Assembly: GCF_014207745.1 (NCBI RefSeq)
Contig: NZ_JACHJB010000002.1
Coordinates: forward strand, 1,860,001-1,924,000
Direction: 5' to 3'
From: Nonomuraea muscovyensis
Lineage (GTDB): Bacteria > Actinomycetota > Actinomycetes > Streptosporangiales > Streptosporangiaceae
DNA length: 64,000 nucleotides
Shown: piece after piece, positions 4,026 through 29,654 of the stretch
Numbering within the stretch: position 1 is the stretch's first letter
Layout: every line of letters begins with the position of its first letter
Made by a program: the position numbers and the translations under genes
The notes under the pieces: generated by a model
Database searches by the model: none
What the model was told of the DNA's origin: nothing
Seen by the model: only the letters and a program-made list of their open reading frames with translations

Positions 4026-4080
4026 CGCCGCCGGCCCGGTGCGGGCCGGCGGCGCTCACCCCGGGCGGCCTGCCGGGGTG
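4026..4080. terminator. Two hairpins between convergent genes
   Basis: A perfect 13-bp GC stem (4026-4038 with 4042-4054, loop GTG) is followed by a second 8-bp stem (4057-4064 with 4073-4080). They lie between the converging PIG-L and thrS genes. There is no T-run, as is usual in high-GC actinomycetes. Just upstream, CATGTCTG occurs three times within 3967-4016. Confidence 0.65.
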
Positions 4081-4081
4081 G

Positions 4082-6046: not shown

Positions 6047-6133
6047 GGTTGCTCCCTGTGGGTCGGTGTGCGGGTGTGGTGGATGTTCCGGCCGGTGGGC
6101 GCCCCGCGGCGCGTTCGCCGGTGAACATCGATG

Positions 6134-6739: not shown

Positions 6740-6800
6740 CTTGCGGGAGTTTATTCGGATGCCTCCCGATCACGCCCCCGACGCGCCGGGACGTCCCAGG

Positions 6801-7694: not shown

Positions 7695-7760
7695 GAATAC
7701 CGAACTCCATTCTGGTTCGTGTCGGCGCGAGTCTAGCCGAGGCGTCGTTTGCGGCGTTTG

Positions 7761-7766
7761 TAAGGT
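7761..7766 (+). promoter_or_regulatory. TAAGGT -10 box before pgm
   Basis: TAAGGT lies seven bases before the ATG at 7774, predicting a leaderless pgm transcript. Confidence 0.45.
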
Positions 7767-7773
7767 GGATTCC

Positions 7774-9405
<1,632 letters not shown>

Positions 9406-9512
9406 CACCTGCGGAAATTGGGGCTGGAGCGGCTGTTTGGCGTACAAGGTGGCGACATTCTGCGATGATCTGTCGAATCCCCCTGGAGTTTGAGCCTCAC
9501 GGATAGTGACAG

Positions 9513-10751: not shown

Positions 10752-10771
10752 GCGCGGGCGGAGGGCCGTAG

Positions 10772-11482: not shown

Positions 11483-11507
11483 TCCCCACCGGCCCGGCCG
11501 CACGGCC

Positions 11508-11615
11508 GGGGGCCGCAGACTCTGGGGGCCGCGTGTCTGGCGGGCCGCACGGTTGGGGGCCGCACGGTTGGGGGCCGCACGACTGGGGGCCGCACGGTTG
11601 GGGGGCCGCATGTCT
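11508..11615. repeat. About seven 15-bp tandem repeats (GGGGGCCGCACGGTT)
   Basis: Consecutive copies begin near 11508, 11524, 11542, 11555, 11570, 11585 and 11600. The middle ones are nearly identical and the outer ones diverged (CAGACT, GTGTCT, CATGTCT variants). The array fills the gap between the DUF2786 and HD genes and runs directly into the -10 box of the HD gene. It is not translated in a sensible frame. Confidence 0.8.
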
Positions 11616-11620
11616 AGGGT
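11615..11620 (+). promoter_or_regulatory. TAGGGT -10 box of a probable leaderless mRNA
   Basis: TAGGGT abuts the last copy of the 15-bp array and lies six bases before the ATG at 11627. Confidence 0.5.
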
Positions 11621-11626
11621 GGCGGC

Positions 11627-12253
11627 ATGCAGACACGCTGGCTCGCCCTGGCGGGCCGCTCCCCCGCCGCCGCGGCCCTGGGCGCGGAGCTGGTCGCCCG
11701 CTGGTCGGAGCCGCACCGCCGCTACCACACGCTGGACCATCTGGCCGCCGTGCTCGCGGCGATCGACCGGCTGGAGGCCGAGGCGGCCGACCCGGTGGCG
11801 GTGCGGCTGGCGGCGTGGTTCCACGACGCCGTCTACGACGGGAGGCCGGGCTGGGACGAGGAGCGCAGCGCGTGGCTGGCACTCGCCCGGCTGCCGCGCT
11901 GCGGGGTGCCCGCCGCGCGGGTCGCCGCGGTGGCCCGGCTGGTACGGCTGACGGCCGCGCACGACCGGCTGGCCCCCGGCGACGCCGACGGGGCCGTGCT
12001 GTGCGACGCCGACCTGTCGGTGCTGGGCGGCGACGGGTACGGCGACTACGCGGCCCGGGTCCGCGAGGAGTACGCGCACGTGCCCGGCGACCTGTTCCGC
12101 CAGGGCAGGGCGGGGGTGCTGCGGCGGCTGCTGGCCACGCCGCGGCTCTACCGGACCCCGCGGGCGTACGAGCTGTGGGAGACGCGGGCGCGGGCGAACA
12201 TGAGCGCCGAGCTGGCCGCCCTCACCGCGGCCGCCCCGCCTCCCACTGGCTGA
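11627..12253 (+). CDS. HD-superfamily metal-dependent phosphohydrolase
   Basis: A 208-residue protein of the predicted HD phosphohydrolase group. RRYHTLDHL near residue 30 and the HD pair in WFHDAVYD near residue 66 supply metal ligands, and a later CDADLSVLG provides a further aspartate. Members act on phosphate esters or nucleotides, but the substrate is not known. It converges on the DUF4031 gene across a shared hairpin terminator. Confidence 0.85.
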   Translation: MQTRWLALAGRSPAAAALGAELVARWSEPHRRYHTLDHLAAVLAAIDRLEAEAADPVAVRLAAWFHDAVYDGRPGWDEERSAWLALARLPRCGVPAARVAAVARLVRLTAAHDRLAPGDADGAVLCDADLSVLGGDGYGDYAARVREEYAHVPGDLFRQGRAGVLRRLLATPRLYRTPRAYELWETRARANMSAELAALTAAAPPPTG

Positions 12254-12273
12254 CGCCCCGTCCGGCGGCCACG

Positions 12274-12302
12274 GGTGGCCCGGGAAAGCAACCCGGGCCG
12301 CC
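12274..12302. terminator. Bidirectional hairpin terminator
   Basis: GGCCCGGG (12277-12284) pairs with CCCGGGCC (12292-12299) around the loop AAAGCAA, with outer base pairs extending the stem. It lies between the convergent HD and DUF4031 genes. Confidence 0.7.
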
Positions 12303-12305
12303 GGG

Positions 12306-12569
12306 TCAGCGGCGTTTGCGGTGCCGGAGGCCGGCGGCGATGAGGCGGTGCAGCAGCTCGCGCGAGCTGACCGCCTGCGCCCCCAGCGAGACGGCCAGGG
12401 CGTGCACGGTCTCCGGCACGTCGTAGTGGTCGCGGTCGAACGCCCGCCCCGGCACGCCGAGCAGCCCGGCGAAGGAGTGCAGCTCGTCCAGGGAGTGGTC
12501 GCTGACCAGATGCGACCACATGAGGCCGCGCGGGCCGGGCCACTGCGGGGGGTCGATGAGCACCGTCAC
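12306..12569 (-). CDS. DUF4031 domain protein
   Basis: An 87-residue protein with the DUF4031 pattern: an N-terminal VLIDPPQW strand, a W-SHLVSD motif, DELHSFA near residue 30, and a DHYDVPE region. Homologues are usually about 80-100 residues and have no known function. The GTG start at 12569 overlaps the stop of the upstream HAD gene (GTGA), so it is translated as the last gene of the P450-HAD-DUF4031 operon. Confidence 0.75.
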   Translation of the reverse strand: MTVLIDPPQWPGPRGLMWSHLVSDHSLDELHSFAGLLGVPGRAFDRDHYDVPETVHALAVSLGAQAVSSRELLHRLIAAGLRHRKRR

Positions 12570-13357
12570 GGGCTCCAGGGTAGGACCCTGCCGCGCACCT
12601 CCAGCTCGCCGAGGTCGGCCACCACCACGTCGGCGCCACGTTCGCGCAGCTCGTCGCCACGGCCGTCGCCGCCGACGGCGAGGCCGGCGCCGGGCGCCCG
12701 GACCGGCCGGTCGACGCCGACGACCAGGCCGAAGCCGCCCTTGCGGCCCGCCTCGATCCCGGGCAGCGCGGCGTCGATCACCGCCGACCTGGCGGCGGGG
12801 ACGGCCAGCCGGCGCGCGGCCTCCAGGAACAGGGCGGGGTCGGGTCTGCCGGGCAGGTTCATCAGGGCCGCGTCGCCGCCGTCGACCACCAGGTCGAACA
12901 GGTGCAGGACGCCCGCCGACGCGACGAGCTTGCGGCCGTGCAGGCTGGCCGAGACGGCCGCGGTGCGGGCGCCCCGGTGGCGCAGCTCGTGCAGCAGTGC
13001 CACGGTCGACGGGAACGCGGCCACGCCGTACTTGTCCACCTGCGCGACGAACAGGCGGTCCTTGGCCAGGCCCAGCCCGTGGACGGTGGGCGAGCCCGGC
13101 TCGTCGTCGGGCGCGCCCTCGGGCAGCTCGATGCCGCGTGAGGCGAGGAAGGTGCGGACGCCGTCGAGTCGCGGCCGCCCCTCCACGTGGCACAGGTAGT
13201 CGGCCTCGATGTCGAAGGGCGCCGAGCGGCCGCGCAGGAACACGTCGAAGACGTGCTTCCAGGCGGCCGCGTGGCCGCGGGCGGTGTCGGTGACCACGCC
13301 GTCGGTGTCGAACACGACGGCGCTGATCGTGGTCAGGTCGATGACGGGTGCGTTCAC
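12566..13357 (-). CDS. HAD hydrolase, beta-phosphoglucomutase-like
   Basis: A 263-residue HAD-superfamily protein with the nucleophile motif VVFDTDGVVTDT (residues 13-24), a helical cap, a motif II serine region (AAVSASLHGRK) and a C-terminal acidic motif (VIDAALPGIEAGRKGGFGLVVGV). This resembles the beta-phosphoglucomutase/trehalose-phosphatase-like branch. In motif III the usual ED pair reads DAALPGI, so an acidic residue is replaced. The GTG start at 13357 lies 19 bases after the P450 stop and inside a 16-base palindrome. The substrate is not known. Confidence 0.8.
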   Translation of the reverse strand: MNAPVIDLTTISAVVFDTDGVVTDTARGHAAAWKHVFDVFLRGRSAPFDIEADYLCHVEGRPRLDGVRTFLASRGIELPEGAPDDEPGSPTVHGLGLAKDRLFVAQVDKYGVAAFPSTVALLHELRHRGARTAAVSASLHGRKLVASAGVLHLFDLVVDGGDAALMNLPGRPDPALFLEAARRLAVPAARSAVIDAALPGIEAGRKGGFGLVVGVDRPVRAPGAGLAVGGDGRGDELRERGADVVVADLGELEVRGRVLPWSP

Positions 13358-13367
13358 ACCTGTGAAC
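13352..13367. promoter_or_regulatory. Palindrome over the HAD start codon
   Basis: GTTCACA and TGTGAAC flank a CC centre, giving 7-bp perfect arms that include the GTG start. It could be a protein-binding operator or a small hairpin that limits translation of the HAD-DUF4031 pair relative to P450. Confidence 0.4.
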
Positions 13368-13376
13368 GTAACCCCA

Positions 13377-14546
13377 TCACCACGCGACGGGTAGCTTCTC
13401 CACGCCGTAGACGATGGCGAGCTTCCTGAACGGCACCTCACCCGCGACGCGCAGGCCGGGGAAGCGGCGCAGCAGCGCCGGGAAGGCGATGCGCATCTCC
13501 ATCTGGGCCAGCGGCGCGCCGATGCAGCGGTGGATGCCGTGGCCGAAGGCCAGGTGGGAGCCGGCCGTGTCGCGGTAGGGCTTGACCTCGTTCATGTCGC
13601 CGCCGAGGTTGGGGTCGCGGTTGGCGGCGGCGAGCGAGCAGAGCACCATCTCGCCCTTCTTGATCAGCCGGCCGTGCATCTCCAGGTCCTCGCGGGCGAA
13701 GCGGGGGAAGGCCACCTGCACGACCGACATGTAGCGCAGCAGCTCCTCGACGACCTGCACCACGTGGCCGTCGACCTCGCGCACCTTGGCGGCCTGCTCG
13801 GGGTTCTCGAGCAGCCACAGCGTGCCGAGGGCGAGCATGCTGGTGCTGGTGTCGTGGCCGCCGGTGAGCATGCCGTCGGCCATGCTGGCCAGTGTGCGGT
13901 CGTCGAGCTCGTCGCCGTGCTCGCGCAGGAGGTGCCCGAGCAGGCCCTCCCCCGGGTCGAGCCGTTCGCGGGCGACGAGCTCGGTGAGGTAGGTCATGGC
14001 GTCGTTGATGGCCTGCAGCGACGCCTCGGGCCCGGCGGTGAAGTCGAAGCGGTCGGTGCTCATCTTGAGGAAGCCGGCCCGCTCCTCGTACGGCACGCCG
14101 AGCAGCTCGCAGACGACGAGCGACGGGATGGGCAGCGCGAAGGACTCCACCAGGTCGGCCGGTGAGCCCTGGGCCTCCATCTTGTCGAGGTGCTCCTCGA
14201 CCATGGCCTCGATGCGCGGCTCCAGCCTGCGCAGCCGGCGCATGGTGAACTCGGGCGTCAGGTACTTGCGCAGCCGGGTGTGCTCGGGCGGGTCGCGGAA
14301 GCCCAGCCCGCCCGGGTCCTCCTGGGTGGAGCCGAGGCCGATCACGTTGCCGAAGTCGTTGCTGAAACGATCATGGTCGCCGAGTACGGTCCGCACGTCG
14401 TTGTAGCGCGTCACCAGGTAGACCGTCTGCCCCCCGGGGATCTCCATGGGGAAGACCGGCTGCTCGGTCTGGATGCGGGCCAGCTCCACCACCGGGTCGA
14501 AGCCCTCGCGCATGAACTGGACTAGGGGGAACTCTGAGTCTGACAT
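13377..14546 (-). CDS. Cytochrome P450
   Basis: A 389-residue soluble bacterial class I P450. The I-helix oxygen motif is GGHDTS, the K-helix EXXR is EELLR, and the heme-binding loop is FGHGIHRCIGAP with the axial cysteine. The start MSDSEFPLV at 14546 follows an AGGACGG ribosome site. It oxidises a small substrate using separate ferredoxin and reductase, neither of which is in the window. It heads the P450-HAD-DUF4031 operon and is divergent from the S33 peptidase. Confidence 0.95.
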   Translation of the reverse strand: MSDSEFPLVQFMREGFDPVVELARIQTEQPVFPMEIPGGQTVYLVTRYNDVRTVLGDHDRFSNDFGNVIGLGSTQEDPGGLGFRDPPEHTRLRKYLTPEFTMRRLRRLEPRIEAMVEEHLDKMEAQGSPADLVESFALPIPSLVVCELLGVPYEERAGFLKMSTDRFDFTAGPEASLQAINDAMTYLTELVARERLDPGEGLLGHLLREHGDELDDRTLASMADGMLTGGHDTSTSMLALGTLWLLENPEQAAKVREVDGHVVQVVEELLRYMSVVQVAFPRFAREDLEMHGRLIKKGEMVLCSLAAANRDPNLGGDMNEVKPYRDTAGSHLAFGHGIHRCIGAPLAQMEMRIAFPALLRRFPGLRVAGEVPFRKLAIVYGVEKLPVAW

Positions 14547-14661
14547 CGTAATCCGTCCTGCTGGGATGCTCGGGGATGAATCCCCCACCGATCGTCCCAT
14601 CTCCGTAGGCCGGTCTTCATCAGACCTCTGGCCGACATTCGCCTCGTACCTGAGGACCCCT

Positions 14662-14691
14662 TGGCAGCACGACGGCCGCCCTCCTAGAGTG
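14662..14691 (+). promoter_or_regulatory. Candidate promoter for the S33 peptidase
   Basis: TTGGCA (14662-14667), an 18-base spacer and TAGAGT (14686-14691) lie about 44 bases before the GTG start at 14735. Confidence 0.5.
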
Positions 14692-14734
14692 CCTGTGCAA
14701 TGGCACATTTTACTGAGGGCTTGGAGGCCGCCGG

Positions 14735-16018
14735 GTGATCACCGCGAGCTACACGATCCCGGGCATGCGGGTACGCGACCACGTCGAGGAGGTGCCGCTC
14801 GACTGGTCCCGTCCCGGCGGCGAGACGATCACCTTGTTCGCCCGCGAACTGGTCGATCCCGTACGCGACCGGGAGGACCTGCCCTGCCTGCTCTACCTGC
14901 AGGGCGGCCCGGGCGGCAAGGGGCCGCGGCCGGTCGGCACGGCCGGCTGGCTCGGCCAGGCGTTGCGCACCCACCGGGTGGTCCTGCTGGACCAGCGCGG
15001 CACCGGCCGCAGCTCCCGCCTCGACGGGCGGCGGATGGCGACGCTCGGCGCGCGGGCGGGCGCCGAGCTGCTGGCGCTGTTCCGCGCCGACTCGATCGTG
15101 GCCGACGCCGAGCACCTGCGCCGCACGGTCTTCGGCGGGCGGCGCTGGGCGACGCTGGGGCAGAGCTTCGGCGGGTTCATCACGCTGACGTACCTGTCGC
15201 GGGCGCCGGAGGGGCTCAGCGCGTGCTACGTCACGGGCGGCCTGCCCACGCTGCAGCCGGACGCGGCGGAGGTCTACCGGCGGACGTACCCGCGGGTCGA
15301 GGCGAAGAACGCGGCGTTCTACCGCCGCTACCCGCACCACGCGCAGACCGTCACCCGGCTGGCCGACCGGCTGGCCGAGGGCGACGTCCTGCTGCCGGAC
15401 GGCGACCCGCTGACCGTGCGGCGGCTGCAGACGCTGGGCATCGACTTCGGCATGAAGCCCGGCTACGAGCGCATGCACTGGCTGCTCGACGAGGCGCTGG
15501 ACGGCGGTCAGGTCACCGAGACGTTCCTGCACCAGGTGCTGGCCCGTACCTCCTACGCCGACAACCCGCTCTTCGCCGCGCTGCAGGAGAGCATCTACGG
15601 CTCCGGGCCCGGCGCCACCGGATGGGCGGCCGAGCGGGAGCGCGCCCGGCATCCGCGCTTCGCCGAGACGGCCCGGCCGCTGCTGTTCACCGGGGAGATG
15701 ATGTATCCCTGGATGTTCGAGGAGATCCGCGCGCTGCGCCCCTTCCGTGCGGCCGTGGAGCTGCTCGCCGAGCGCGACGACTGGCCCCCGCTGTACGACC
15801 CGCGGCGGCTGGCCGGCAACGAGGTGCCGCTGGCGGCCGCCGTCTACTTCGACGACATGTACGTCGACTCGGGCCTGCAACTCGACACGGCGGCCCGGGT
15901 CGGCAACGCCCAGGCGTGGGTGACCAACGAGTACGAGCACGACGGCGTCGGCGAGGAGCGCGTCTTCGCCCGGCTGACCGAGCTGATCCGCGACGTCGGC
16001 GGCGGCCTCCAGGACTGA
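14735..16018 (+). CDS. Alpha/beta-hydrolase, S33 proline-iminopeptidase-like
   Basis: A 427-residue alpha/beta-hydrolase resembling prolyl aminopeptidases. The oxyanion-hole motif GGPGG is near residue 57, DQRGTGRS follows, and the nucleophile elbow is GQSFGG near residue 145. It should release N-terminal proline or hydrolyse small amides or esters in the cytoplasm. The GTG start at 14735 has GGAGG eight bases upstream. It is monocistronic, with its own promoter. Confidence 0.85.
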   Translation: MITASYTIPGMRVRDHVEEVPLDWSRPGGETITLFARELVDPVRDREDLPCLLYLQGGPGGKGPRPVGTAGWLGQALRTHRVVLLDQRGTGRSSRLDGRRMATLGARAGAELLALFRADSIVADAEHLRRTVFGGRRWATLGQSFGGFITLTYLSRAPEGLSACYVTGGLPTLQPDAAEVYRRTYPRVEAKNAAFYRRYPHHAQTVTRLADRLAEGDVLLPDGDPLTVRRLQTLGIDFGMKPGYERMHWLLDEALDGGQVTETFLHQVLARTSYADNPLFAALQESIYGSGPGATGWAAERERARHPRFAETARPLLFTGEMMYPWMFEEIRALRPFRAAVELLAERDDWPPLYDPRRLAGNEVPLAAAVYFDDMYVDSGLQLDTAARVGNAQAWVTNEYEHDGVGEERVFARLTELIRDVGGGLQD

Positions 16019-16126
16019 CGCGGCGCACGAGGCTGCGGGCGCTCCCCAGGCGGGACGGCTCCGGGCGGGGGCTTCCCGGGTGAGGTCTCGCGGCCGGGAC
16101 GGAGTCCACCCGGCGCGCGCCGCGAT

Positions 16127-18529
16127 CTACGCCTCGGCGGGGACGCCCGGCGCGGCGGTGGCGTTGACGGCAGCCGCGGTCTCTCTGTGGATCGTGTACG
16201 CCCGGCCGGCGGCGGCGTCCCAGGTGAGCGTGTCGCCGTCGCGGCGCGCCCCGACCTGGAGTCCCCGGTCGTCGAGGATCCGGTGGCGGCCCGCGATGAG
16301 GGACGACCGGAGCCGGAGAGGGCCACTCCTGCCGGGGCGGACGGTGACGGTGTCGGGGGCGCCGTCCTTCCAGGTGGCGTCCACGGTGACGTCGCCGCGT
16401 GCGCGCAGCCCGGACACCGAGCCGGTGCGCCACGCGCCGGGCAGGGCGGGCAGCACGTGGATGGCGTCGTGCCGGCTCTGCAGCAGCATCTCGGCGATGC
16501 CGGAGGTGGCGCCGAAGTTGCCGTCGATCTGGAACGGCGGATGGGTGTCCCACAGGTTGTCCAGGGTGGAACCCTTGAGCTGCTCGGCGAGCATCCGGTG
16601 GGCGCGGTCGCCGTCCAGCAGCCGCGCCCAGAAGTTCATCTTCCAGGCCTTGGACCAGCCGGTCCGGCCGTCGCCGCGCGCGGTCAGCGAGACCGTGGCC
16701 GCCTCGGCGTGCGGGCTGCCGGCCGCGATCTGGTCGCCGGGGTGCAGGGCGTACAGGTGGGAGGCGTGCCGGTGGGTGTCGGTGCGGGAGTCCCAGTCGC
16801 TCTTCCACTCCTGGAGCTGGCCCCAGGAGCCGACGCGCAGTCCCGGGTCCAGGCGCTCCAGCGCGGCCCTCGTCTCGGCCTGGAAGTCCTGGTCCACGTC
16901 CAGCCGCTCGGCCGCCGCCAGGGCGTGGGCGAGCACCTCGCGGACGATCTGCTGCGACATCGACGCGCCGGCCGAGAAGTCACCGTGCTCCGGCGAGTAG
17001 CTGGGCGAGACGACGAGCTTGCCGTCGCGCGGGTCGGTGTGCAGGAAGTCCAGCCAGAACTCGGCGGCGCCCTTGATCACCGGGTAGGCGGTGTCACGTA
17101 GATACCTCTCGTCGCCGGTGAAGCGGTAGCTGTCGTACAGGTGCCGGGTGGCCCACGCGGCGGCCTCGGGGAACCAGAACGCCGTGGCCCAGTCGTGCAC
17201 GCCGGTGAAACCGAACGGATTGGTCTCGTTGTTGACGACCCAGCCCCTCGCCCCGAACATCTCCCGCGCCGTCCGGGCGCCGGGGGCGACGAGAGCCGAG
17301 ATGTAACGGTCGTAGGGCACGGCGGTCTCGGCCAGGTTCGTCTGGTGCGCCGGCCAGTAGTTCATCTGCAGATTGATGTTGACGTGGTAGTCGGCCGACC
17401 ACGGCGGGCTGGTCGAGTCGTTCCACACCCCCTGCAGATTCGCCGGCAGCAGGTCGTTCTCCCGGGACGAGGCGATCAACAGGTAGCGGCCGTAGGCGAA
17501 GAACAGCGCCTCCAACGCCCGATCATCAGCGGCGGACCCACCGGTGTAGTCCCTGCGGAGCCGGTCGGTCGGCACCGCGGGAACGCCCTGACCGAGGTCC
17601 AGCCGCACCCGGTCGAACAACCGGCGATAGTCCGCCAGGTGCACGGCCTTCAGGTCGTCGTAGCTCCTGGCGGATGCGGCGTCCACCGCGGCGGTGACCT
17701 CGGCGTGCGGATCCTCGCCCCGATACGCGGGGTGGGCATCGGCGTAGTCGGTACCGGCCGACAACACCAGCACCGCACTGTCGGCGCCACGGACCGTCAC
17801 CCTGTCGCCGTCGTCGGTGCGGGTGCCGCCGTGGGCGATGACCTGCACCTGCGCCTCGAACCGCATCCCGTTGTCCGACAGCGCGCCGCGAATGGTCAAC
17901 CGGCCGTCGGCCGCGGTGACCGTCTTGTCGTCACGCGGCGAGCTGTGGCGCAACGTGAAGGACACCGTGCCCGGCCGGTCCGCCGAGATGCGGCCGACGA
18001 TCACGTTGCCGGGGTTGCTGGCGAAGTACTCGCGCGAGTGGGCGACACCGTCGGCGCTGTAGCCGACCCGCGCCACGGCCTCCCGCAAGCTGAGCTCACG
18101 CCGGTATCCGGAAGGGGCCTGCGGCGCGCCGGCCTGGTCGAGGTGCAGGTCGAGGTGCAGGTCGCCGAACGTCTGGTACGCCCCGAACCCGCTCTTGGGC
18201 AGGCCCAGCCGGGCCGCCACCGCCTCCGGCGCCATCCTGCCATCCCGATCGATCCGTTCGCGGACCTCCTCGACGGCCCCCGGCCGCGGCCGTCTCCAGT
18301 TGCCGAAGTCGTAGCCGGGCGAACCGGGCCCGCCGGTCCACAGCGTCTTCTCGTTGAACTGGATCCGCTCGGAGGCGACCCCGCCGAACACCTTGGCGCC
18401 GAGGGGCCCGTTGCCGATGGGCAGGGCCTGGGTCTCCCAGTCGGTGGCCGGCCGGTCGTACCAGAGCGTGAGGTCGTCGGGTCCGGGGGCGGCGGACGCG
18501 TGCCCGTGGACGCTCGTGGCGGGTCGCAA
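16127..18529 (-). CDS. Glycoside hydrolase family 95 (alpha-L-fucosidase/galactosidase type)
   Basis: About 800 residues with GH95 architecture: an N-terminal beta domain starting LWYDRPATDW and ALPIGNG, then an (alpha/alpha)6 barrel holding NLQGVWN, NINLQMNYWPA, HDWATAFWF and HRHASHLYALHPGDQ, and a C-terminal beta domain. These enzymes invert alpha-1,2-L-fucosyl or related alpha-L-galactosyl bonds of plant and host glycans. I chose the TTG at 18529, which has a GGAGG site seven bases upstream; the longer ATG reading from 18589 starts inside the promoter. With either start no signal peptide is seen, so the enzyme looks intracellular and would need imported oligosaccharides. Confidence 0.88.
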   Translation of the reverse strand: MRPATSVHGHASAAPGPDDLTLWYDRPATDWETQALPIGNGPLGAKVFGGVASERIQFNEKTLWTGGPGSPGYDFGNWRRPRPGAVEEVRERIDRDGRMAPEAVAARLGLPKSGFGAYQTFGDLHLDLHLDQAGAPQAPSGYRRELSLREAVARVGYSADGVAHSREYFASNPGNVIVGRISADRPGTVSFTLRHSSPRDDKTVTAADGRLTIRGALSDNGMRFEAQVQVIAHGGTRTDDGDRVTVRGADSAVLVLSAGTDYADAHPAYRGEDPHAEVTAAVDAASARSYDDLKAVHLADYRRLFDRVRLDLGQGVPAVPTDRLRRDYTGGSAADDRALEALFFAYGRYLLIASSRENDLLPANLQGVWNDSTSPPWSADYHVNINLQMNYWPAHQTNLAETAVPYDRYISALVAPGARTAREMFGARGWVVNNETNPFGFTGVHDWATAFWFPEAAAWATRHLYDSYRFTGDERYLRDTAYPVIKGAAEFWLDFLHTDPRDGKLVVSPSYSPEHGDFSAGASMSQQIVREVLAHALAAAERLDVDQDFQAETRAALERLDPGLRVGSWGQLQEWKSDWDSRTDTHRHASHLYALHPGDQIAAGSPHAEAATVSLTARGDGRTGWSKAWKMNFWARLLDGDRAHRMLAEQLKGSTLDNLWDTHPPFQIDGNFGATSGIAEMLLQSRHDAIHVLPALPGAWRTGSVSGLRARGDVTVDATWKDGAPDTVTVRPGRSGPLRLRSSLIAGRHRILDDRGLQVGARRDGDTLTWDAAAGRAYTIHRETAAAVNATAAPGVPAEA

Positions 18530-18565
18530 ACGGATTCCTCCGATCACCGAGGGATGTGATCCAAG

Positions 18566-18594
18566 GACATAGCACCCAAATCCCCACATAACAA
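18566..18594 (-). promoter_or_regulatory. Promoter of the GH95 gene
   Basis: On the minus strand TTGTTA (18594-18589), a 17-base spacer and TATGTC (18571-18566) give a good sigma-70 promoter. It predicts transcription from near 18558, just upstream of the TTG start at 18529. Confidence 0.55.
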
Positions 18595-18638
18595 GAGAGC
18601 CATCCGATGTCTATTGCTCGGCAGGGGACCGGGCGTCG

Positions 18639-18851
18639 TCAGGCCACGGGGCACATGGCGGCCAGCGCGTCGTCCATGGCGGCGCGGGGCGTCTCGGTCG
18701 CCAGCTCGCGGAGCTGGTCGGCGAAGGCGACGGCCTGCTCGGGCGTGAGCCGCGGCTCGGGACCGACGTAGAACACGACGATCTCGCCGAGCGGCGACCG
18801 GATGGCGGTGAACGGAAGAGGCGGGGAGATGACCATGATGGGCATCATCAT
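18639..18851 (-). CDS. Small hypothetical protein
   Basis: A roughly 70-residue protein with the coding frame well supported in its C-terminal 60 residues (PLGEIVVFYVGPEPRL, then a helix rich in Ala, Asp and Glu). The start ATG at 18851 follows a GGTGGGG site; an ATG at 18836 is an alternative. I do not recognise it. It might modify or regulate a neighbour but stands alone between GH95 and the tRNA. Confidence 0.55.
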   Translation of the reverse strand: MMMPIMVISPPLPFTAIRSPLGEIVVFYVGPEPRLTPEQAVAFADQLRELATETPRAAMDDALAAMCPVA

Positions 18852-19093
18852 GCCGTGCCCCACCGACAAAATCCCGCGGTTTTCACTGCTCGCCCCTCGC
18901 GTCACACCAGGACGCCGCCATCACGCCCACCGATGCGCCGTCCGGAGTCGATGCCGACCGGCTCCGGCGCCGCGCTCGACGTCCACGCCGGCGGGCAAGC
19001 CTTCGGCCCCTGGCCCAGCGGCCCCTTCAGCGACGCTCCCGCGCCGTCCGGGAAGATCATGTTGTCCCCGGATTCTCCCCGAACGATCAGAAA

Positions 19094-19121
19094 GGCCGCC
19101 TCCCCGGAGAGGGAGACGGCC
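19094..19121 (-). terminator. Terminator of tRNA-Val
   Basis: On the minus strand GGCCGTCTCCC pairs with a GGGGAGGCGGCC arm and is followed by TTTCT. It begins 12 bases after the tRNA 3' end. Confidence 0.7.
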
Positions 19122-19132
19122 TCTGAGCTGTG

Positions 19133-19204
19133 TGGGCGATACTGGGATCGAACCAGTGACCTCTTCGGTGTGAACGAAGCGCTCTCCCGCTGAGCTAATC
19201 GCCC
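19133..19204 (-). tRNA. tRNA-Val (CAC)
   Basis: A 72-base cloverleaf without encoded CCA. Acceptor GGGCGAT pairs with ATCGCCC, the D-arm is AGCTCAGCGGGAGAGC, the anticodon stem is CTTCG/CGAAG with loop TTCACAC (anticodon CAC), and the T-arm has GGTTCGATCC. A TATGGT box at 19244-19239 on the minus strand is a candidate -10. Confidence 0.95.
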
Positions 19205-19636
19205 GCCCTGTGCGGCCCCTGGCGGTGCCGACGGGAAAACCATACCGCACTCTGGCACCTACTGGCGAAGCGAGCGGCGTCGAGGGAAGGATTCGGGGGA
19301 ATGGATGTGGTTGCCCGTCGGCATGACGGGTCGGTGGCATACCATCGTCGTGTTCCGGAAGGGCCCCGATCGTGATCCTTTCTCCAGAAACGTTCATGGC
19401 GGCTCCCCCGGGACCGGCTCCGGAACACGCAAAACCCTCGCAAATACGACCCAAATGATCCCCGTTTGACCAGATAGATGCCCGAATGTCCAGCTGTGAT
19501 GTGTGTTACAGAAGGCCCCGAGGGCGGAATCTTTCCTACAGGTTTCTTCGTTCCGCGTCATAGCTCAGGACGAAGTCCGTACCGAGCAGCGAAAGCCCCG
19601 AAGAGGGGACCTACGAACGAAAAGGTTTGGCTGACG
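19205..19636. other. Intergenic region between tRNA-Val and ssgB
   Basis: No gene is supported. The right half (about 19440-19560) is AT-richer than average and should hold the ssgB promoter, with a leader of about 100 bases that includes a small CCCGAAGAGGGG hairpin before the start. The left edge holds the tRNA-Val promoter. No sigma-H type consensus could be placed with confidence. Confidence 0.5.
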
Positions 19637-20053
19637 ATGAACAGCACCACCGTCTCCGCCGAGCTTGGCCTTCGGCTTGTGGTCCCCGACCGTACGACCG
19701 TCCCCCTGCTCGCCGGACTGAGTTACACGGCCGACGACCCCTACGCCATCCGCATGGCCTTCCACGTGGGCAACGACGAGCCGGTCGAGTGGATCTTCGC
19801 CCGTGAGCTGCTGACCGTGGGGATCGTGCGGCGCGTCGGCGACGGCGACGTGCAGGTGTGGCCGGCCCGCGCCGACGGCGAGCGCACGCTGCACATCAGC
19901 CTGACGTCCCCGTTCGGTCAGGCGTTGTTCGAGGTCCCGCTGGCCCCGCTCACCGAGTTCCTGCACCGGACCTACGAGAAGGTCCCCGCCGGGCGGGAGA
20001 CCGATTTCATGGACCTCGACGCCGAGCTGACCAACATGCTCTGGCCGTCCTGA
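19637..20053 (+). CDS. ssgB: SsgB-like sporulation/cell-division protein
   Basis: A 138-residue SsgA-like protein, the same length as SsgB. Recognisable parts are the N-terminal LGLRLVVPDRTTVPLLAGLSY, DPYAIRMAFH, VEWIFARELL and the C-terminal TEFLHRTYEKVP blocks. SsgB localises FtsZ to future septum sites during sporulation division in actinomycetes. The ATG at 19637 starts the conserved N-terminus. It is monocistronic with a long leader, which fits developmental control. Confidence 0.93.
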   Translation: MNSTTVSAELGLRLVVPDRTTVPLLAGLSYTADDPYAIRMAFHVGNDEPVEWIFARELLTVGIVRRVGDGDVQVWPARADGERTLHISLTSPFGQALFEVPLAPLTEFLHRTYEKVPAGRETDFMDLDAELTNMLWPS

Positions 20054-23988: not shown

Positions 23989-24819
23989 TCAGGGGTCGAG
24001 GTCGGCGGCCGAACGCTCGGCGAAGACGCGCATCGCCTCGGTCGTGACGGGGCCGGGCGCGACCGGGAGTTCGCGGTCGTCGACGAGCCGGATCGGCTGG
24101 ACGTCGCGGGTGGTGGAGGTGAGGAACGCCTCCTCGGCGTCGTACAGCGCCGACAGGGGCACGTCGGCCTCCTCGCCGCCACACCACTCCAGCACCAGCG
24201 CCCGCGTGACGCCGGCCAGGCAGCCGGACGCCAGCGTCGGCGTGAGCAGCCGCCCGTCGCGCACGATGAACACGTTGGAGCCGGTGCCCTCGCACAGGTC
24301 GCCGGCGACGTTGCCGAAGACGGCCTCGCCGCCGCCGCGCGCCTTGGCGTAGGCGAGGGCCTTGGCGTTGTCGCCGTAGGAGGTGCTCTTGACGCCGGCC
24401 AGCGCGCCGCGCTCGTTGCGCGGCCAGGGGACGACGGTGACGTTCGCGGTGGCGGGGAACGGCTTCTGCTCGTCCACGATCACGACGGAGGTGGTGCCCT
24501 GGTCGCCGCGGTCGGAGCCGAGCGGGCCCGGGCCGCTGGTGTAGGTGATGCGGATGCGGCCGAGCGCCCAGCCCGGCGCCGCGGCCAGCAGCTTCTCGAC
24601 GCCCTCGGCGATGGCCTCGACGTCCGGCGCGGCCAGGTCCATGCGCTGCGCGGAGAGCGTGAGCCGGTCGAGGTGGCGGGTGAGGGCGAACGGGCGGCCG
24701 TGCACGATCTTCACGGTCTCGAACACGCCGTCGCCGACCATCAGTCCGTGGTCGAACACCGAGACCACGGCCTGCCGGGGGTCGAACAGCTCCCCGTTGA
24801 CCCAGACAGGGATGTTCAT
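23989..24819 (-). CDS. pabC: Aminodeoxychorismate lyase, class IV aminotransferase
   Basis: A 276-residue fold-type IV PLP enzyme. VFDHGLMVGDGVFETVKI near residues 21-38, the PLP-lysine region around GVKSTSYGDNAKAL (about 143-156) and EGTGSNVF are diagnostic. It follows pabB directly (TGA abuts ATG), which supports 4-amino-4-deoxychorismate lyase, yielding p-aminobenzoate for folate, over branched-chain aminotransferase. A D-amino-acid or branched-chain activity cannot be fully excluded. Confidence 0.87.
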   Translation of the reverse strand: MNIPVWVNGELFDPRQAVVSVFDHGLMVGDGVFETVKIVHGRPFALTRHLDRLTLSAQRMDLAAPDVEAIAEGVEKLLAAAPGWALGRIRITYTSGPGPLGSDRGDQGTTSVVIVDEQKPFPATANVTVVPWPRNERGALAGVKSTSYGDNAKALAYAKARGGGEAVFGNVAGDLCEGTGSNVFIVRDGRLLTPTLASGCLAGVTRALVLEWCGGEEADVPLSALYDAEEAFLTSTTRDVQPIRLVDDRELPVAPGPVTTEAMRVFAERSAADLDP

Positions 24820-25830
24820 TCAGATGCCTCCTGTGGATGCCAGTGAGATGAGCCTGGACGCCTTCAGCTCGGTCTCGAGCCACTCACGACGGGGATCGCT
24901 GCCCCACGTGATGCCCGCTCCCGTGCCGAACCGGATCTCCTCGGCGGAGATCCAGAATGTACGGATGCCCACGGCCAGCGCCGCCCTGCGACGGTCGGCG
25001 TCGACCCAGCCCACAGCCCCACAGTAGGGCCCCCGGGGCTCGGGTTCGAGTTCGTTGATGATGCGCAGCGCCGACGATTTGGGGGCACCCGTCACCGAAC
25101 CGGGAGGGAACGTCGCCGCGAACAGCTCCGCCCAGCCGGCCCCGGGCAACAGCCTGGCACGCACGGTGGACACCAGGTGCACCAGGCCGGGGTGCTCCTC
25201 GACGACGCACAGGGCGGGCACCTCGACGGAGCCGACCTCGGCGACCCGGCCCAGGTCGTTGCGGACCAGGTCGACGATCATGACGTTCTCGGCGTAGTCC
25301 TTGTCCAGCAGGTCGGCGGCGGTGACACCGGTGCCCTTGATGGGCCGGGACTCGATCACGTCGCCGTCGCGCGACAGGTAGAGCTCGGGGGAGGCCGACA
25401 CCACGCTCAGCCCGGGGACATGGATGACGGCGGCGTAGGGGGCGGGGTTGCCCTCGGCCAGGCGGGCGGCCAGGGCGAGCGGGTCGGCGTCGGGCGGCAC
25501 GGGCGCCGACAGCACCCGGCACAGGTTGGCCTGGTAGACGTCGCCCTGCTCGATGGAGGCGCGGATGGCCCGCACGCCCCGCTCGTAGGCGGGCCGGTCG
25601 AGGGAGCTGCGCCACTCGTGCGGGCGGGGGCCGTGCCACGTCCCGCGCGGGGCGGGCAGCGGCGCCGGCCGTACGTGCTCGAAGCGGGCGCACGTCACCT
25701 TGCCCTCGAAGTCGACGACCACGGCCCACCAGCCCTCGCCGTCGAGGGCGGACAGGTCGGTGGTGAGGTCGCGCAGGCCCGTGGCGAGAAGCCGGCCTAC
25801 GTGGGCGAAACCGTCGTGCACGTCTGCCAT
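24820..25830 (-). CDS. pabB: Aminodeoxychorismate synthase component I
   Basis: A 336-residue chorismate-utilising enzyme. IKGTG, ENVMIVDLVRNDLGRV and the C-terminal FPPGSVTGAPK and GAVGW motifs match PabB. It converts chorismate and ammonia to 4-amino-4-deoxychorismate. The glutaminase subunit PabA is not in the window. The start MADVHDGF at 25830 lies inside the last 34 bases of the upstream LysR gene, and the stop touches the pabC start, so the three genes form one transcript. Confidence 0.9.
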   Translation of the reverse strand: MADVHDGFAHVGRLLATGLRDLTTDLSALDGEGWWAVVVDFEGKVTCARFEHVRPAPLPAPRGTWHGPRPHEWRSSLDRPAYERGVRAIRASIEQGDVYQANLCRVLSAPVPPDADPLALAARLAEGNPAPYAAVIHVPGLSVVSASPELYLSRDGDVIESRPIKGTGVTAADLLDKDYAENVMIVDLVRNDLGRVAEVGSVEVPALCVVEEHPGLVHLVSTVRARLLPGAGWAELFAATFPPGSVTGAPKSSALRIINELEPEPRGPYCGAVGWVDADRRRAALAVGIRTFWISAEEIRFGTGAGITWGSDPRREWLETELKASRLISLASTGGI

Positions 25831-26714
25831 TCTCCCAGCAGCCGGACGAGCTCCAGCGCGGCGGGCAGCCGAACCTGGGGCAGGGCGGCGTACACGGTGC
25901 GGGCGGGCGCCGTCCCGTGCAGCGGACGCAGCACCACTCCGGCGGGCACGGCCCGCGCCGCCAGCTCGGGCACCAGCGTCACCCCGAGCCCGGCGGCCAC
26001 GAAACCGAACTTGCCCGTCCACTCCGCCACCCGCAGCCCGCCGCGCGGCGTGAAACCGGCGGCGGCGCAGGCGGCGGCCAGCAGCGTCGGCTGCCCGCGC
26101 GGCGCGGCCTCGATCCAGGTCTCCCCCGCCAGGTCGCGCAGCCGCACACGCTCCTCGCCGGCCAGCCGGTGGGCGGCGGGCAGCGCCACCAGCAGCCGGT
26201 CCTCGCGCAGCCGGACCAGGTGGCCCGCCTCGGCGGGCAGCCCGGCCGGGTAGTCGCTGATCACGGCGACGTCCAGCGCGCCGGCGCCGAGCCGTTCCAT
26301 CAGCCGGCCGGTCAGCCCCTCGACGAGCCGCAGCTCGACCTCCGGCCGCGCCGCCGCGAACCTGCTGAGCGCGCCCGGAACCAGGTCGACGTTCGCGGTG
26401 GCGAACGCGCCGACCCGCAGCGTGCCGCCGCTGCCGCGGTGGATGGCGGCCAGTTCCTCCCCGGCGCGGTCGAGGCGGTCGAGCACGGCGACGGCGTGCC
26501 GGTGCAGCGCCAGCCCGGCGGGTGTCAGCCGCACTCCGCGGGCCAGCCGCTCGAAGAGCGGGCCTCCGGCGGCGCGCTCCAGCGCGGCGACGCGCCGGGA
26601 GACGGCCGACTGGGTGTAGCCGAGCAGCTCGGCGGCGGCGGTGAACGAGCCGCTCATGGCCACCTCGTCGAGGAGGCGGAGGGCACCGGTGTCGAAGTCA
26701 TGCGTGTTGGTCAT
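25797..26714 (-). CDS. LysR-type transcriptional regulator
   Basis: About 305 residues: an N-terminal winged HTH (GSFTAAAELLGYTQSAVSRR, about 20-39) and a LysR effector-binding domain. It is divergent from the dehydrogenase-Rid fusion with 57 bases between starts, the classical arrangement for a LysR regulator and its target. It also overlaps pabB downstream. An alternative ATG lies nine bases earlier. The effector is unknown. Confidence 0.9.
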   Translation of the reverse strand: MTNTHDFDTGALRLLDEVAMSGSFTAAAELLGYTQSAVSRRVAALERAAGGPLFERLARGVRLTPAGLALHRHAVAVLDRLDRAGEELAAIHRGSGGTLRVGAFATANVDLVPGALSRFAAARPEVELRLVEGLTGRLMERLGAGALDVAVISDYPAGLPAEAGHLVRLREDRLLVALPAAHRLAGEERVRLRDLAGETWIEAAPRGQPTLLAAACAAAGFTPRGGLRVAEWTGKFGFVAAGLGVTLVPELAARAVPAGVVLRPLHGTAPARTVYAALPQVRLPAALELVRLLGEWQTCTTVSPT

Positions 26715-26771
26715 GGCTGGCATGCAATCTAGTCGTTGGTGGAATCTCTCGGGGTGGGCTTCACTGCTCAC

Positions 26772-27971
26772 ATGACGACTTATCAGGGAAAAATTGCATT
26801 TCTCGGACAGGGCCGCATGGGTGTCCCCATGGCGCGGCGGCTGCGGGAGGCCGGGCACCGGGTGACGGTGTGGCGGCGCGGCACGGACGTGCCGGTGGCC
26901 GAGGCGGTCGCCGGGGCCGACCTCGTGATCACCATGCTGCGCGACCCGGCGGCGGTGCGCGAGGTGCTGGCGGCGGCGCTGCCCGGGCTGCGTGCCGGGG
27001 CGACTGTGGTGGAGATGTCCACCGTCGGCCCGGAGGCGGTGCGCGAGCTGCGCGCCTCGCTGCCCGGTTCCGTCGGGCTGGTGGACGCTCCCGTGCTGGG
27101 CAGCGTGGGGCCGGCGGCCGACGGCACGCTCACCGTCCTGGCGGGCGGCCTGTCCGGCCCGGGCGTGGACGGGGCGGGGTGCCGGGCGGTGCTGGAGGTG
27201 TTCGGCACGGTACGCGAGGCGGGTCCGCTGGGCGCCGGCGCGGCGCTCAAGCTCGCCGTCATGAGCGCGCTCGTCCCGGCCCAGGTGCTGCTCGCCGAGA
27301 CGTTCGCGTACGGCGAGGCGCACGGCGTGCCGCGCGGAGCACTGGCGGACGTGCTGGCGGCGACCCCGCTGGGCGGACTCGCCGAGCGGCTGCGCACCCC
27401 CGCCGGGCAGACCCGGTACGCGCTCGGCCTGGCGGCCAAGGACCTGTCCCTCGCCGCGTGGGAGGGCGCCTCGCTGGCCACGGCGGCCAGGAGGCGCCTG
27501 CAGGAGGCGGAGGCGGCGGGCCTCGGCGACCACGACCTGACGGCGATCGCCGCCCACCTGTCCGCCGCGCCGCCGGTGCCCCGCCGCAGGGCCGTGCCGC
27601 TGAACCCGCCGGCCGTGCCCGCCACCAACGGCATGTACTCGCACGCGGTGCGGGCCGGCGACACCCTGTACGTCTCCGGGCAGGTGGCCCTCGGCGAGGG
27701 AGGCGCCGTGGTGGGCGAGGGCGACATGACGGCCCAGGCCGAGCACGTCTTCCGGAGCCTGTCGCACATCCTCGCCGACCAGGGCGCCGGGTTCGGGGAC
27801 ATCACGTTCATCAGGACGTACCTGACCGACATGGACAGGCGGGCCGAGTACGGCGCGGTACGCCGCAAGTACATCACCGGCACGCCGCCGGCCAGCACCA
27901 CCGTGGAGGTGCCGCGGCTGTTCGTGCCGGGGCTGCTGCTGGAGGTCGACCTCGTCGTCGCCCTGCCCTGA
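26772..27971 (+). CDS. Beta-hydroxyacid dehydrogenase-Rid domain fusion
   Basis: A 399-residue two-domain protein. Residues 1-270 are an NAD(P)-binding 6-phosphogluconate/3-hydroxyisobutyrate dehydrogenase-like fold (IAFLGQGRMGVPMARRL; VVEMSTVGPEAV; catalytic-lysine region GAALKLAVM). The Asn that normally follows the lysine by four is Met here. Residues 275-399 are a RidA/YjgF domain (NGMYSHAVRAGDTLYVSGQV; TFIRTYLTD). In canonical RidA an arginine follows PA in the last motif; here S375 replaces it (PASTTVEV), so imine deaminase activity is doubtful. The fusion suggests handling of an enamine/imine or carbonyl intermediate. Regulation by the divergent LysR is likely. Confidence 0.85.
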   Translation: MTTYQGKIAFLGQGRMGVPMARRLREAGHRVTVWRRGTDVPVAEAVAGADLVITMLRDPAAVREVLAAALPGLRAGATVVEMSTVGPEAVRELRASLPGSVGLVDAPVLGSVGPAADGTLTVLAGGLSGPGVDGAGCRAVLEVFGTVREAGPLGAGAALKLAVMSALVPAQVLLAETFAYGEAHGVPRGALADVLAATPLGGLAERLRTPAGQTRYALGLAAKDLSLAAWEGASLATAARRRLQEAEAAGLGDHDLTAIAAHLSAAPPVPRRRAVPLNPPAVPATNGMYSHAVRAGDTLYVSGQVALGEGGAVVGEGDMTAQAEHVFRSLSHILADQGAGFGDITFIRTYLTDMDRRAEYGAVRRKYITGTPPASTTVEVPRLFVPGLLLEVDLVVALP

Positions 27972-28103: not shown

Positions 28104-29654
28104 TCAGGCGAGCGGGCCGGTGACGGACTCCACGGCCGCCACCACGGAGCCGTCCGCCACCAGGCGGACCGCCGACTCGATCTCCGGCGCCAGGAAGCGG
28201 TCGGGACCGGGCCCCGGCACCGTCTCGCGCAGTGCCCGCACCACGGCGGCCGTGGCCGGCGCCGGGGCGAGCGGCGCGCGCAGGTCGATCGCGCGGGCGG
28301 CGGTGAGCACCTCGACGGCGAGCACGCGGGTGAGCCCGTCGACGGACCTGCGCAGCTTGCGCGCCGCCGACCAGCCCATCGAGACGTGGTCCTCCTGCAT
28401 GGCGGAGCTGGGGATCGAGTCGACGCTCGCGGGCACGGCCAGGCGCTTCAGCTCGGAGACGACGGCCGCCTGGGTGTACTGGGCGATCATGTGGCCGGAG
28501 TCGACGCCCGGGTCGTCGGCCAGGAACGCGGGCAGGCCGTGGTTGCGCGCCACGTCGAGGAACCGGTCGGTGCGGCGCTCCGACATCGAGGCCAGGTCGG
28601 CGGCCACGATCGCGAGGAAGTCCAGCACGTACGCGACGGGAGCGCCGTGGAAGTTGCCGTTGGACTCGACGCGGCCGTCGGCCAGCACGGCCGGGTTGTC
28701 GACGGCGCTGGCCAGCTCCCAGGAGGCGACGTTGGCGGCGTGGGCGATCGTGTCGCGGGCCGCACCGGCCACCTGGGGGGCGCAGCGCAGGGAGTAGGCG
28801 TCCTGAACGCGGGTGCAGGAGCCGGGGTCGCGGTGGCTGTCCATGATCCCGGAGCCGGCCAGGATCCTCGTCATATTGGCGGCGGCGAGGGCCTGGCCCG
28901 GCTGCGGGCGCAGGGCCTGCAGTTCGGGGGCGAAGACGCGGTCGGTGCCCAGGAGCGCCTCGACGCTCATCGCGGCGCTGATGTCGGCGGTCCGGACGAG
29001 CCTGGTCAGGTCGTCGATGGCGAGGATCAGCATGCCGAGCATGCCGTCGGTGCCGTTGATCAGCGCCAGTCCCTCCTTGGCGGCCAGCTCGACGGGCTCG
29101 ACGCCCGCCTGCTTGAGCGCCTCGGCGGCCGAGGTGAGCTCGCCCGACGCGTCGCGGACGACGCCCTCGCCCATGAGGGTGAGCGCGACGTGCGCCAGCG
29201 GTGCGAGGTCGCCGGAGCAGCCGAGACTGCCGTACTCGTGCACAACGGGCGTGATCCCCGCGCTGATGAGCGCCGCGAGGGTCTTGGCGGTGGTCGGCCG
29301 GATGCCGGTGTGGCCGGTGGCGAGCGTGTGCAGGCGCAGCAGCATGAGGGCGCGCACCACCTCCGTCTCCACCTCCGGGCCGCTGCCCGCCGCGTGGGAG
29401 CGGACCAGGGAACGCTGGAGCTGGGCGCGCAGCGCCGGGTCGATGTGCCGGGTGGCGAGCGCGCCGAACCCGGTGGAGACGCCGTAGGCGGGTGTGGGGC
29501 TCTCGGCCAGCTCGTCCACCCGCTGCCGGGCTGCCGAGATCGCCGCGACGGCGTCGTCGGTGAGCTGTACGGGGGCGCCGTGGCGGGCCACCCGGATGAC
29601 GTCGTCGAAGGTCAGGGGCTCTGGGCCGACGTTCACGACTCCGTTGTCGCGCAT
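28104..29654 (-). CDS. hutH: Histidine ammonia-lyase
   Basis: A 516-residue aromatic amino acid lyase that deaminates L-histidine to urocanate, the first step of histidine catabolism. The MIO prosthetic group forms from C146-S147-G148 in GSLGCSGDLAPLAH; actinomycete enzymes use this CSG form in place of ASG. YGVSTGFG near residue 57 carries the catalytic tyrosine. No other hut genes are in the window. An ArsR regulator lies 14 bases upstream on the same strand and may be co-transcribed. Confidence 0.95.
   Translation of the reverse strand: MRDNGVVNVGPEPLTFDDVIRVARHGAPVQLTDDAVAAISAARQRVDELAESPTPAYGVSTGFGALATRHIDPALRAQLQRSLVRSHAAGSGPEVETEVVRALMLLRLHTLATGHTGIRPTTAKTLAALISAGITPVVHEYGSLGCSGDLAPLAHVALTLMGEGVVRDASGELTSAAEALKQAGVEPVELAAKEGLALINGTDGMLGMLILAIDDLTRLVRTADISAAMSVEALLGTDRVFAPELQALRPQPGQALAAANMTRILAGSGIMDSHRDPGSCTRVQDAYSLRCAPQVAGAARDTIAHAANVASWELASAVDNPAVLADGRVESNGNFHGAPVAYVLDFLAIVAADLASMSERRTDRFLDVARNHGLPAFLADDPGVDSGHMIAQYTQAAVVSELKRLAVPASVDSIPSSAMQEDHVSMGWSAARKLRRSVDGLTRVLAVEVLTAARAIDLRAPLAPAPATAAVVRALRETVPGPGPDRFLAPEIESAVRLVADGSVVAAVESVTGPLA

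Follow-up and report, generated by a model that had tools for sequence, protein, structure and literature searches.

A beta-hydroxyacid dehydrogenase fused to a Rid domain with serine in place of the catalytic arginine, and the LysR unit around it, in Nonomuraea muscovyensis and relatives

Why should a beta-hydroxyacid dehydrogenase (bHAD) be joined to a Rid domain in which the arginine that defines imine deamination is a serine? The question is posed by an open reading frame of Nonomuraea muscovyensis, whose genome measures 9.23 Mb, within the 64,000 nucleotides analysed here (the window). The original prediction, made from the letters alone, took the product for an imine reductase-like enzyme whose Rid domain binds rather than deaminates, possibly under the control of an amino-chorismate or aromatic amine signal. 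Here we consider the two active sites, the regulator, the distribution of the genes and the explanations that these leave standing.

Two domains and their active sites

The coding sequence (26772..27971, + strand; ORF calling, Pfam and an alignment of 39 fused proteins, the window's included) begins with an ATG at 26772, closes with a stop codon ending at 27971 and encodes 399 residues. Residues 1-266 (26772..27569, +) form the bHAD domain, with Rossmann and helical parts, as judged from Pfam, the structural model and fold comparison, and residues 283-397 (27618..27962, +) form the Rid domain according to Pfam and PDB alignments. Pfam places NAD_binding_2 at 7-126 (E 2.7e-22), NAD_binding_11 at 154-261 (E 1.1e-4, under the curated cut-off) and Ribonuc_L-PSP (PF01042) at 283-397 (E 7.7e-25, 87.7 bits against a cut-off of 27.3); the bHAD and Rid models of NCBIfam also matched, all below their cut-offs. 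An AlphaFold single-chain model made from the 39-row alignment reached a mean pLDDT of 90.8 and a pTM of 0.67, with a low-confidence stretch at about 261-290. The closest relative among named records is that of Nonomuraea indica, at 90% identity. That a bHAD domain and a RidA-like domain share one reading frame is confirmed by Pfam and by the 39 fused proteins.

For the dehydrogenase, residues were counted in those 39 fusions and in a broader comparison of 101 rows, of which 43 are fused, 19 lie close to a separate Rid gene and 39 do not. The catalytic lysine, Lys160 (codon 27249..27251, +), is present in 39/39 fusions and 101/101 rows, as is the K223-D224 pair of motif 4, and the Rossmann NAD(P) domain with its GxGxMG is recognised by NAD_binding_2 and by fold. 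The published bHAD motif 3, GXXGXGXXXKXXXN/Q (PMC3642240), carries Asn or Gln at K+4; the fusion has the lysine and, at K+4, Met164 (27261..27263, +), which corresponds to Asn175 of bHADs and to position 191 of imine reductases, or IREDs (alignment; PMC7540600, PMC3642240). Motif 2, DAPVSGG, reads DAPVLGS in the window, with Leu109 (27096..27098, +) in the place of Ser122 (alignment; motif from PMC3642240). According to the same source, Lys171 and Asn175 sit by the carboxylate of the substrate, and Ser122 is discussed as well; since the positions now held by Met164 and Leu109 are ones that reports or docking put at the bHAD substrate, the dehydrogenase may not take small beta-oxo acids.

The anticipated exchange of the family asparagine for methionine after the lysine was therefore found, at K+4, with the restriction that only 33 of the 39 fusions have Met there (N in 5, I in 1); residue 109 is L in 33, S in 5 and V in 1. 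A nonpolar K+4 residue (M or I) occurs in 56/68 rows of the unit's dehydrogenase clade and 0/33 of the remaining rows, and five Streptomyces dehydrogenases (L053-L057) have Asn. On these alignments Met164 is lineage-specific and not fixed, and as a hallmark of the fusion it was rejected, Asn standing there in 5/39. We had also considered that both sites had lost their grip on a carboxylate, which would indicate a substrate without one; this idea is weakened because the fusions L083-L087 keep Ser109 and Asn164 alongside a Ser-type Rid, and because Leu109 is common among dehydrogenases outside the clade as well.

Fold comparison, considered over the best 50 entries, gave as top match the gamma-hydroxybutyrate dehydrogenase 3pdu (Z 31.6, rmsd 1.8, 258 aligned, 34% identity), with N-PAC, 3pef and glyoxylate reductases within one Z unit of it; imine reductases appear at Z about 22 over 194-197 residues, as against Z about 31 over about 260 for bHADs. 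With the short-chain bHADs 3pdu and 3pef the fusion has in common the fold, the lysine, Thr84 and the KD motif; it differs from this group by Met for Asn at K+4, Leu for Ser in motif 2 and the C-terminal Rid domain, and in the window's genus by a shortened segment after beta2. IREDs are reported to carry nonpolar Leu or Met at standard position 191 (K+4) and to use Asp, Tyr or Glu as the imine-reducing proton donor (PMC7540600). The fusion shares the nonpolar position, through Met164, and differs in its lysine donor and in a fold match of only about 195 residues. On the strength of Lys160 and the fold we class the dehydrogenase as a bHAD, whose pocket is less polar in the window's lineage, and not as an IRED, an assignment rejected despite the IREDs among the fold matches. 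Of the 'imine reductase-like' label, then, the nonpolar residue stands, whereas the donor is still lysine and the bHADs are the stronger structural matches.

The serine of the Rid domain, Ser375 (AGC, 27894..27896, +), occupies the place of the RidA catalytic Arg105 in PDB alignments and in all 39 fusions. The alignment around it has no gaps (PPASTTVEV against PPARVTVEV and the like), and the serine's column holds Arg in 5/5 alignments listed, of 42 PDB sequences matched. An arginine displaced within the same loop was looked for and not found in this ungapped alignment, so the predicted replacement holds, with serine fixed. Tyr289 (27636..27638, +), the equivalent of RidA Tyr17, Glu391 (27942..27944, +), that of Glu120, and Arg364 (27861..27863, +), at RidA position 91, are each likewise present in 39/39 fusions by the Rid alignment. 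The domain thus belongs to the RidA family with its Tyr and Glu and departs from it at position 105; RidA deaminases are trimers whose active site lies between subunits. Rid5 and Rid6 are marked by a variable residue at 105 together with a subfamily footprint. Rid4 and Rid7 are characterised by Trp in place of Arg105 (PMC4433059), which the fusion lacks, having Ser there; it fits instead the Ser-variant RidA proteins, by alignment rather than by CDD subfamily profiles. These make up about 10% of the RidA subfamily, and the part of that paper available gives no function for them, describes Rid-Rid fusions and mentions neither a dehydrogenase fusion nor Arg91 (PMC4433059). An Arg-to-Ala change in RidA nearly abolishes imine hydrolysis (PMC4433059), the arginine is required in the mutated RidA proteins and in RutC, and in Rids that lack it no deaminase activity could reportedly be detected (PMC4433059, PMC8113886).

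Position 91 was followed through 135 Rid domains, 26 in the unit's clade and 109 outside it, of which 12 came by a Ser-type profile and two genes entered twice (L165/L190, L171/L181). Arg105 is absent from 26/26 domains of the clade, and position 91 is R in 26/26. Outside it, where Arg105 is present, residue 91 is Y, F, L or V and never basic (42/42), while R or H stands there in 34/67 rows without Arg105; for the 97 rows found with the general Pfam model, a basic residue at 91 occurs in 0/42 with Arg105 and in 22/55 without (10 R, 12 H). Arg105 changes only about four times on the Rid tree, giving at most four independent 105/91 pairs, and the swap is for this reason a lead and not a test, the Fisher values calculated from these counts being unreliable. 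Rid groups with Asp105/Arg91 and Ala105/His91 sit on separate branches of this set (for example L171, L172, L193). The host genome holds twelve Rid domains, of which Arg105 is kept in 4 by alignment and the fusion alone falls in the Ser/Arg91 clade. In the AlphaFold model positions 84, 88 and 91 share one helix (354-367). By alignment, we take position 84 to be F147 of Arabidopsis RidA. As F147 is reported to line the pocket (PMC4960622), position 91 of the same helix may face the same substrate cleft, and Arg364 is a possible displaced arginine.

Regulator, promoter element and neighbours

A LysR-type regulator of 305 residues (25797..26714, - strand; Pfam and relatives' loci), with HTH_1 and LysR_substrate domains by Pfam, is divergent from the fusion; comparison with its nearest solved relatives (7w06, RipR) gave no usable ligand clue. 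Between the two genes lies a conserved element (26712..26745, core of 25 bp at 26721-26745; weight matrix and alignment of loci), whose first, upstream CAT is the ATG start codon of LysR read on the other strand. The matrix was made from 17 sites including the window's and covers positions 10-34. At 26721 it gives 41.4 bits, whereas the highest score in 20 shuffled versions of the 64-kb window was 14.8. For 17 non-seed loci, some of them close kin of seeds (L053, L055, L078, L080, L082-L087, L123, L157, L159, L161-L164), the best site scored 12.0-42.7 bits, with 16/17 above 14.8 and L086 (12.0) below; 16/17 sites lie no more than 80 bp upstream of the first aligned dehydrogenase or Rid codon, that of L053 lying about 150 bp upstream. 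The element stays upstream in L083-L087, where LysR is elsewhere, and in loci with Rid only; in one of the latter, L157, the Rid ATG occupies the dehydrogenase start position of its relatives. Nine dehydrogenase loci without a LysR match (L058-L060, L074, L077, L081, L118, L120, L131) had no site above 8 bits, and the host genome has one copy at up to 3 mismatches. A box of the form CTAGCGT, CTAACGT or ATAGCGT follows the element, with the start codon 6-10 bases on, in 12/13 loci listed, the window being the exception; if it is a -10 box, the 12 relatives would make leaderless or nearly leaderless transcripts. T-N11-A is the box motif of LysR regulators; one was seen by eye in the Streptomyces-type element and not in the window's. 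The regulator is predicted to act at the 25-bp core.

The flanking genes proved less constant. A pabC-like class IV aminotransferase/lyase (23989..24819, -), a pabB-like gene of uncertain start (24820..25830, -) that we place outside the unit, and a convergent histidine ammonia-lyase, HAL (28104..29654, -), each recognised by Pfam, NCBIfam and relatives' loci, are lineage-specific neighbours, matched beside the unit only in a single subclade of the dehydrogenase tree (45 rows), which belongs to the window's family. The overlap between LysR and pabB on which the original signal was founded is plausible from three start candidates inside LysR (GTG 26022, ATG 25830, GTG 25821; later GTGs at 25722 and 25698 fall outside it), but it is not conserved, with the best pabB match beginning 971 to 2687 bp upstream of the dehydrogenase match across relatives, and with L030 and L050 having a pabC match but no pabB match. 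The aminochorismate or pab link was itself rejected: LysR, element, dehydrogenase and Rid occur without a pabB match in Streptomyces, on one Kitasatospora and one Streptomyces plasmid and in a number of further genera in the window's family, and the single element copy in the host genome speaks against it too. No catabolic gene conserved with the unit was seen in the examined flanks of relatives; the neighbours named by eye from sequence starts, fabF/acpP-like in Streptomyces and LeuCD-like in genus g37, look positional.

Distribution and history

The search across genomes for this architecture and its neighbours established the two-domain protein as real and conserved, and also turned up split, dehydrogenase-only and Rid-only arrangements. 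In a sample of 250 genomes of the family, 93, the window's own included, have a match at E<=1e-40, be it a whole fusion, two pieces or the dehydrogenase only; in 396 genomes of the phylum, among the matches listed, only G421 (genus g70; two genes) besides the window spans the whole model, and its dehydrogenase is identical to that of Streptomyces aureus L054. The fused gene faces a divergent LysR in the window's family and is followed by a convergent downstream LysR in L083-L087. Separate dehydrogenase and Rid genes with divergent LysR are found in Streptomyces (L053-L057), in L067-L073, L075, L088 and L164, and with larger gaps in L076, L079 and L080; 7/10 separate-gene pairs overlap or lie within 20 bp, some Rid positions being those of the first aligned codon. 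LysR and dehydrogenase occur with no Rid match within the examined stretch on a Kitasatospora plasmid (L065), on an S. viridifaciens plasmid (L066) and in L078, L082 and L123, and LysR with a Ser-type Rid and no dehydrogenase match between in L157, L159, L161, L162 and L163, all Streptomyces of genus g70. Among plasmids, one record (Nonomuraea gerenzanensis) carries a near full-length relative of the fusion and two carry LysR-dehydrogenase pairs with no annotated or matched Rid nearby; viral contigs, queried with the Rid domain, yielded no relative.

On a quick dehydrogenase tree with SH-aLRT supports, 68 rows form one group at a modest support of 85. Of these, 61 have a divergent LysR next to them, 5 a convergent one and 2 (L074, L077) none that was found; outside the clade the count is 0/33 rows, with flanks of 1.5 kb for many of them; a Rid lies within the examined stretch in 62/68 rows of the clade as against 1/33 others (L062). 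L067-L073, which are split, branch from among fused forms (supports 82), and the fused and split states require at least three changes, so that the two genes seem to have been both joined and separated. The Ser-type Rids of the unit are one group of 26 rows (support 96) on the Rid tree, where the Rid-only Streptomyces are nested inside Streptomyces loci having both genes (supports 86-94). Because of this nesting these strains apparently lost the dehydrogenase; their genomes hold only distant ones (best 43-47% identity). Since, in these soil actinobacteria, LysR and the element accompany fused, neighbouring, dehydrogenase-only and Rid-only forms, the two proteins probably serve one pathway and are each useful alone, which suggests a pathway for a reactive compound.

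The pair also occurs apart from the regulator. In G108 a Ser-type Rid and a same-clade dehydrogenase belong to a cluster that also contains FkbH, acyl-CoA dehydrogenase, 3-hydroxyacyl-CoA dehydrogenase, a KS-ACP-thioester reductase, an ATP-grasp ligase and, as a sub-cutoff match, a possible methyltransferase; neither a LysR match nor the 25-bp element was found in this cluster, and for that reason we regard the pair as being used outside the LysR unit. Thioester reductases are enzymes of a type that releases aldehydes. A biosynthetic-looking cluster was noticed in L145 at 4066-19644 (also L077), with a luciferase-like monooxygenase, MFS, FkbH, acyl-CoA dehydrogenase, 3-hydroxyacyl-CoA dehydrogenase, KS-ACP-thioester reductase, bHAD, possible methyltransferase, Ser-type Rid and ATP-grasp ligase. 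In a Rokuibacteriota MAG (L062, about 7800-9160) the first part of a bHAD gene overlaps with a Rid gene that encodes Thr at 105, and this is an independent second pairing of an Arg-less Rid with a bHAD, in another phylum, outside Actinomycetota.

A possible deaminase-reductase and its alternatives

The answer that we favour, tentatively and as something possible rather than probable, is a LysR-controlled two-site protein whose Rid domain would hydrolyse an enamine or imine and whose dehydrogenase would reduce the released carbonyl. A compound, or a relative of it, would appear and LysR at the divergent element would switch the unit on; the Rid of Ser375/Arg364 type would split the enamine or imine, which may be a beta-enamino compound, into carbonyl and ammonia, and the bHAD domain, using NAD(P)H and donating a proton from Lys160, would turn the carbonyl into an alcohol before it escapes. 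The architecture, the fixed residues and the constancy of LysR, element and module across layouts are observed, whereas the reaction with its direction, its cofactor and its class of substrate, and likewise induction and binding by LysR, we infer. The whole scheme would be the sequence of RutC then YdfG, from E. coli pyrimidine degradation, within one chain. To our knowledge YdfG is not a bHAD. There, RutC converts 3-aminoacrylate to malonate semialdehyde, after which YdfG uses NADPH (PMC8113886), and the likeness lies in enamine deamination by a Rid followed by NADPH reduction of a carbonyl; the two are, however, separate proteins and RutC has and needs Arg104 (PMC8113886), whereas the fusion is one chain with Ser375. 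Counting against such a deaminase-reductase are the reported inactivity of Arg-less Rids (PMC4433059, PMC8113886), the exchanges at Met164 and Leu109, and the lack of any conserved catabolic gene in the examined stretches. A bolder form, which we think unlikely, is that Rids filed as Arg-less have partly moved their arginine, the helix Arg91 (R364) replacing the strand Arg105 (S375) and re-aiming the cleft at a different enamine, so that the fusion would be a deaminase-reductase for a new substrate class with its own LysR switch.

Several alternatives have to be set beside the favoured scheme. The dehydrogenase might reduce a C=N bond while the Rid binds or isomerises an imine or enamine without hydrolysis, which is also an unlikely account. 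Met164 matches the nonpolar Leu/Met of IRED position 191, and the wild-type glyoxylate reductase of Arabidopsis, itself a bHAD with Lys, reportedly reduces cyclic imines (PMC7540600); N192L/N193L alongside K189D in Ta-bHAD raised imine reduction (PMC7756219), an alternative donor, Asp224, is present with Thr84 in 39/39 fusions, and the same-clade dehydrogenase and Ser-type Rid share a cluster with a thioester reductase. Yet the donor position is lysine in 101/101 rows, wild-type thermophile bHADs did not reduce imine 1 of PMC7756219, the IRED fold matches are the weaker ones, and Asn at K+4 in 5/39 fusions and in L053-L057 means that the IRED-like Met and the Rid partner are not linked. We are just as doubtful that the dehydrogenase works in the oxidative direction, taking a beta-hydroxy amine or amino acid to an aminoketone or enamine that the Rid clears. 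The precedent is the D-phenylserine dehydrogenase of Pseudomonas syringae NK-15, a bHAD for a beta-hydroxy amino acid with Lys177 kept, 2-aminoacetophenone as product and an oppositely directed LysR by its operon (PMC2963168), and L-serine 3-dehydrogenases, bHADs that do likewise, are among the PDB fold matches listed. That operon, unlike the fusion unit, has six ORFs including MFS, SDR-type and IlvD-like ones and, in the part of the paper available, no Rid (PMC2963168); no conserved amino-acid transport or catabolic gene was seen in the examined flanks of the unit, and Rid-only units exist without a dehydrogenase.

These Rid-only units weigh as well on the proposal that the Rid is non-catalytic, an oligomerisation or ligand-sensing module for the dehydrogenase, which we hold to be distinctly unlikely. 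It would account for the absence of the catalytic arginine from everything examined, 39/39 fusions and 26/26 of the Rid clade, but in L157, L159, L161, L162 and L163 a lone Ser-type Rid lies behind the same element in genomes whose only dehydrogenases are the distant ones (43-47%), and Tyr289, Glu391, Ser375 and Arg364 are invariant in fusions. A chance fusion with no joint function is disfavoured and, to us, very improbable. As few as three fused/split changes on the tree are compatible with it, and within the family common descent in any case preserves the gene order round the fusion; against it are the neighbouring-gene forms in distant lineages, the shared element, and the dehydrogenase with Ser-type Rid in an unrelated biosynthetic cluster.

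The component families are known, and RidA proteins with serine at the catalytic arginine position, a feature of the fusion's Rid with its Tyr and Glu kept, are already described (PMC4433059). Our search of the literature, mostly outside subscription journals, found no published description of a dehydrogenase-Rid fusion, of a LysR-Rid unit, or of the module with its element and its Ser/Arg91 Rid. Through fusion, adjacency and a promoter element in common, one group of Ser-type RidA proteins is now linked to a single oxidoreductase and a single regulator, which makes its function testable, and the inducer of the LysR, once found, would point to the substrate class. If active, the fusion would be a ready-made deaminase-reductase chain for enzyme chemistry, and if the arginine has indeed moved, the Ser-type RidA proteins would gain their first function.
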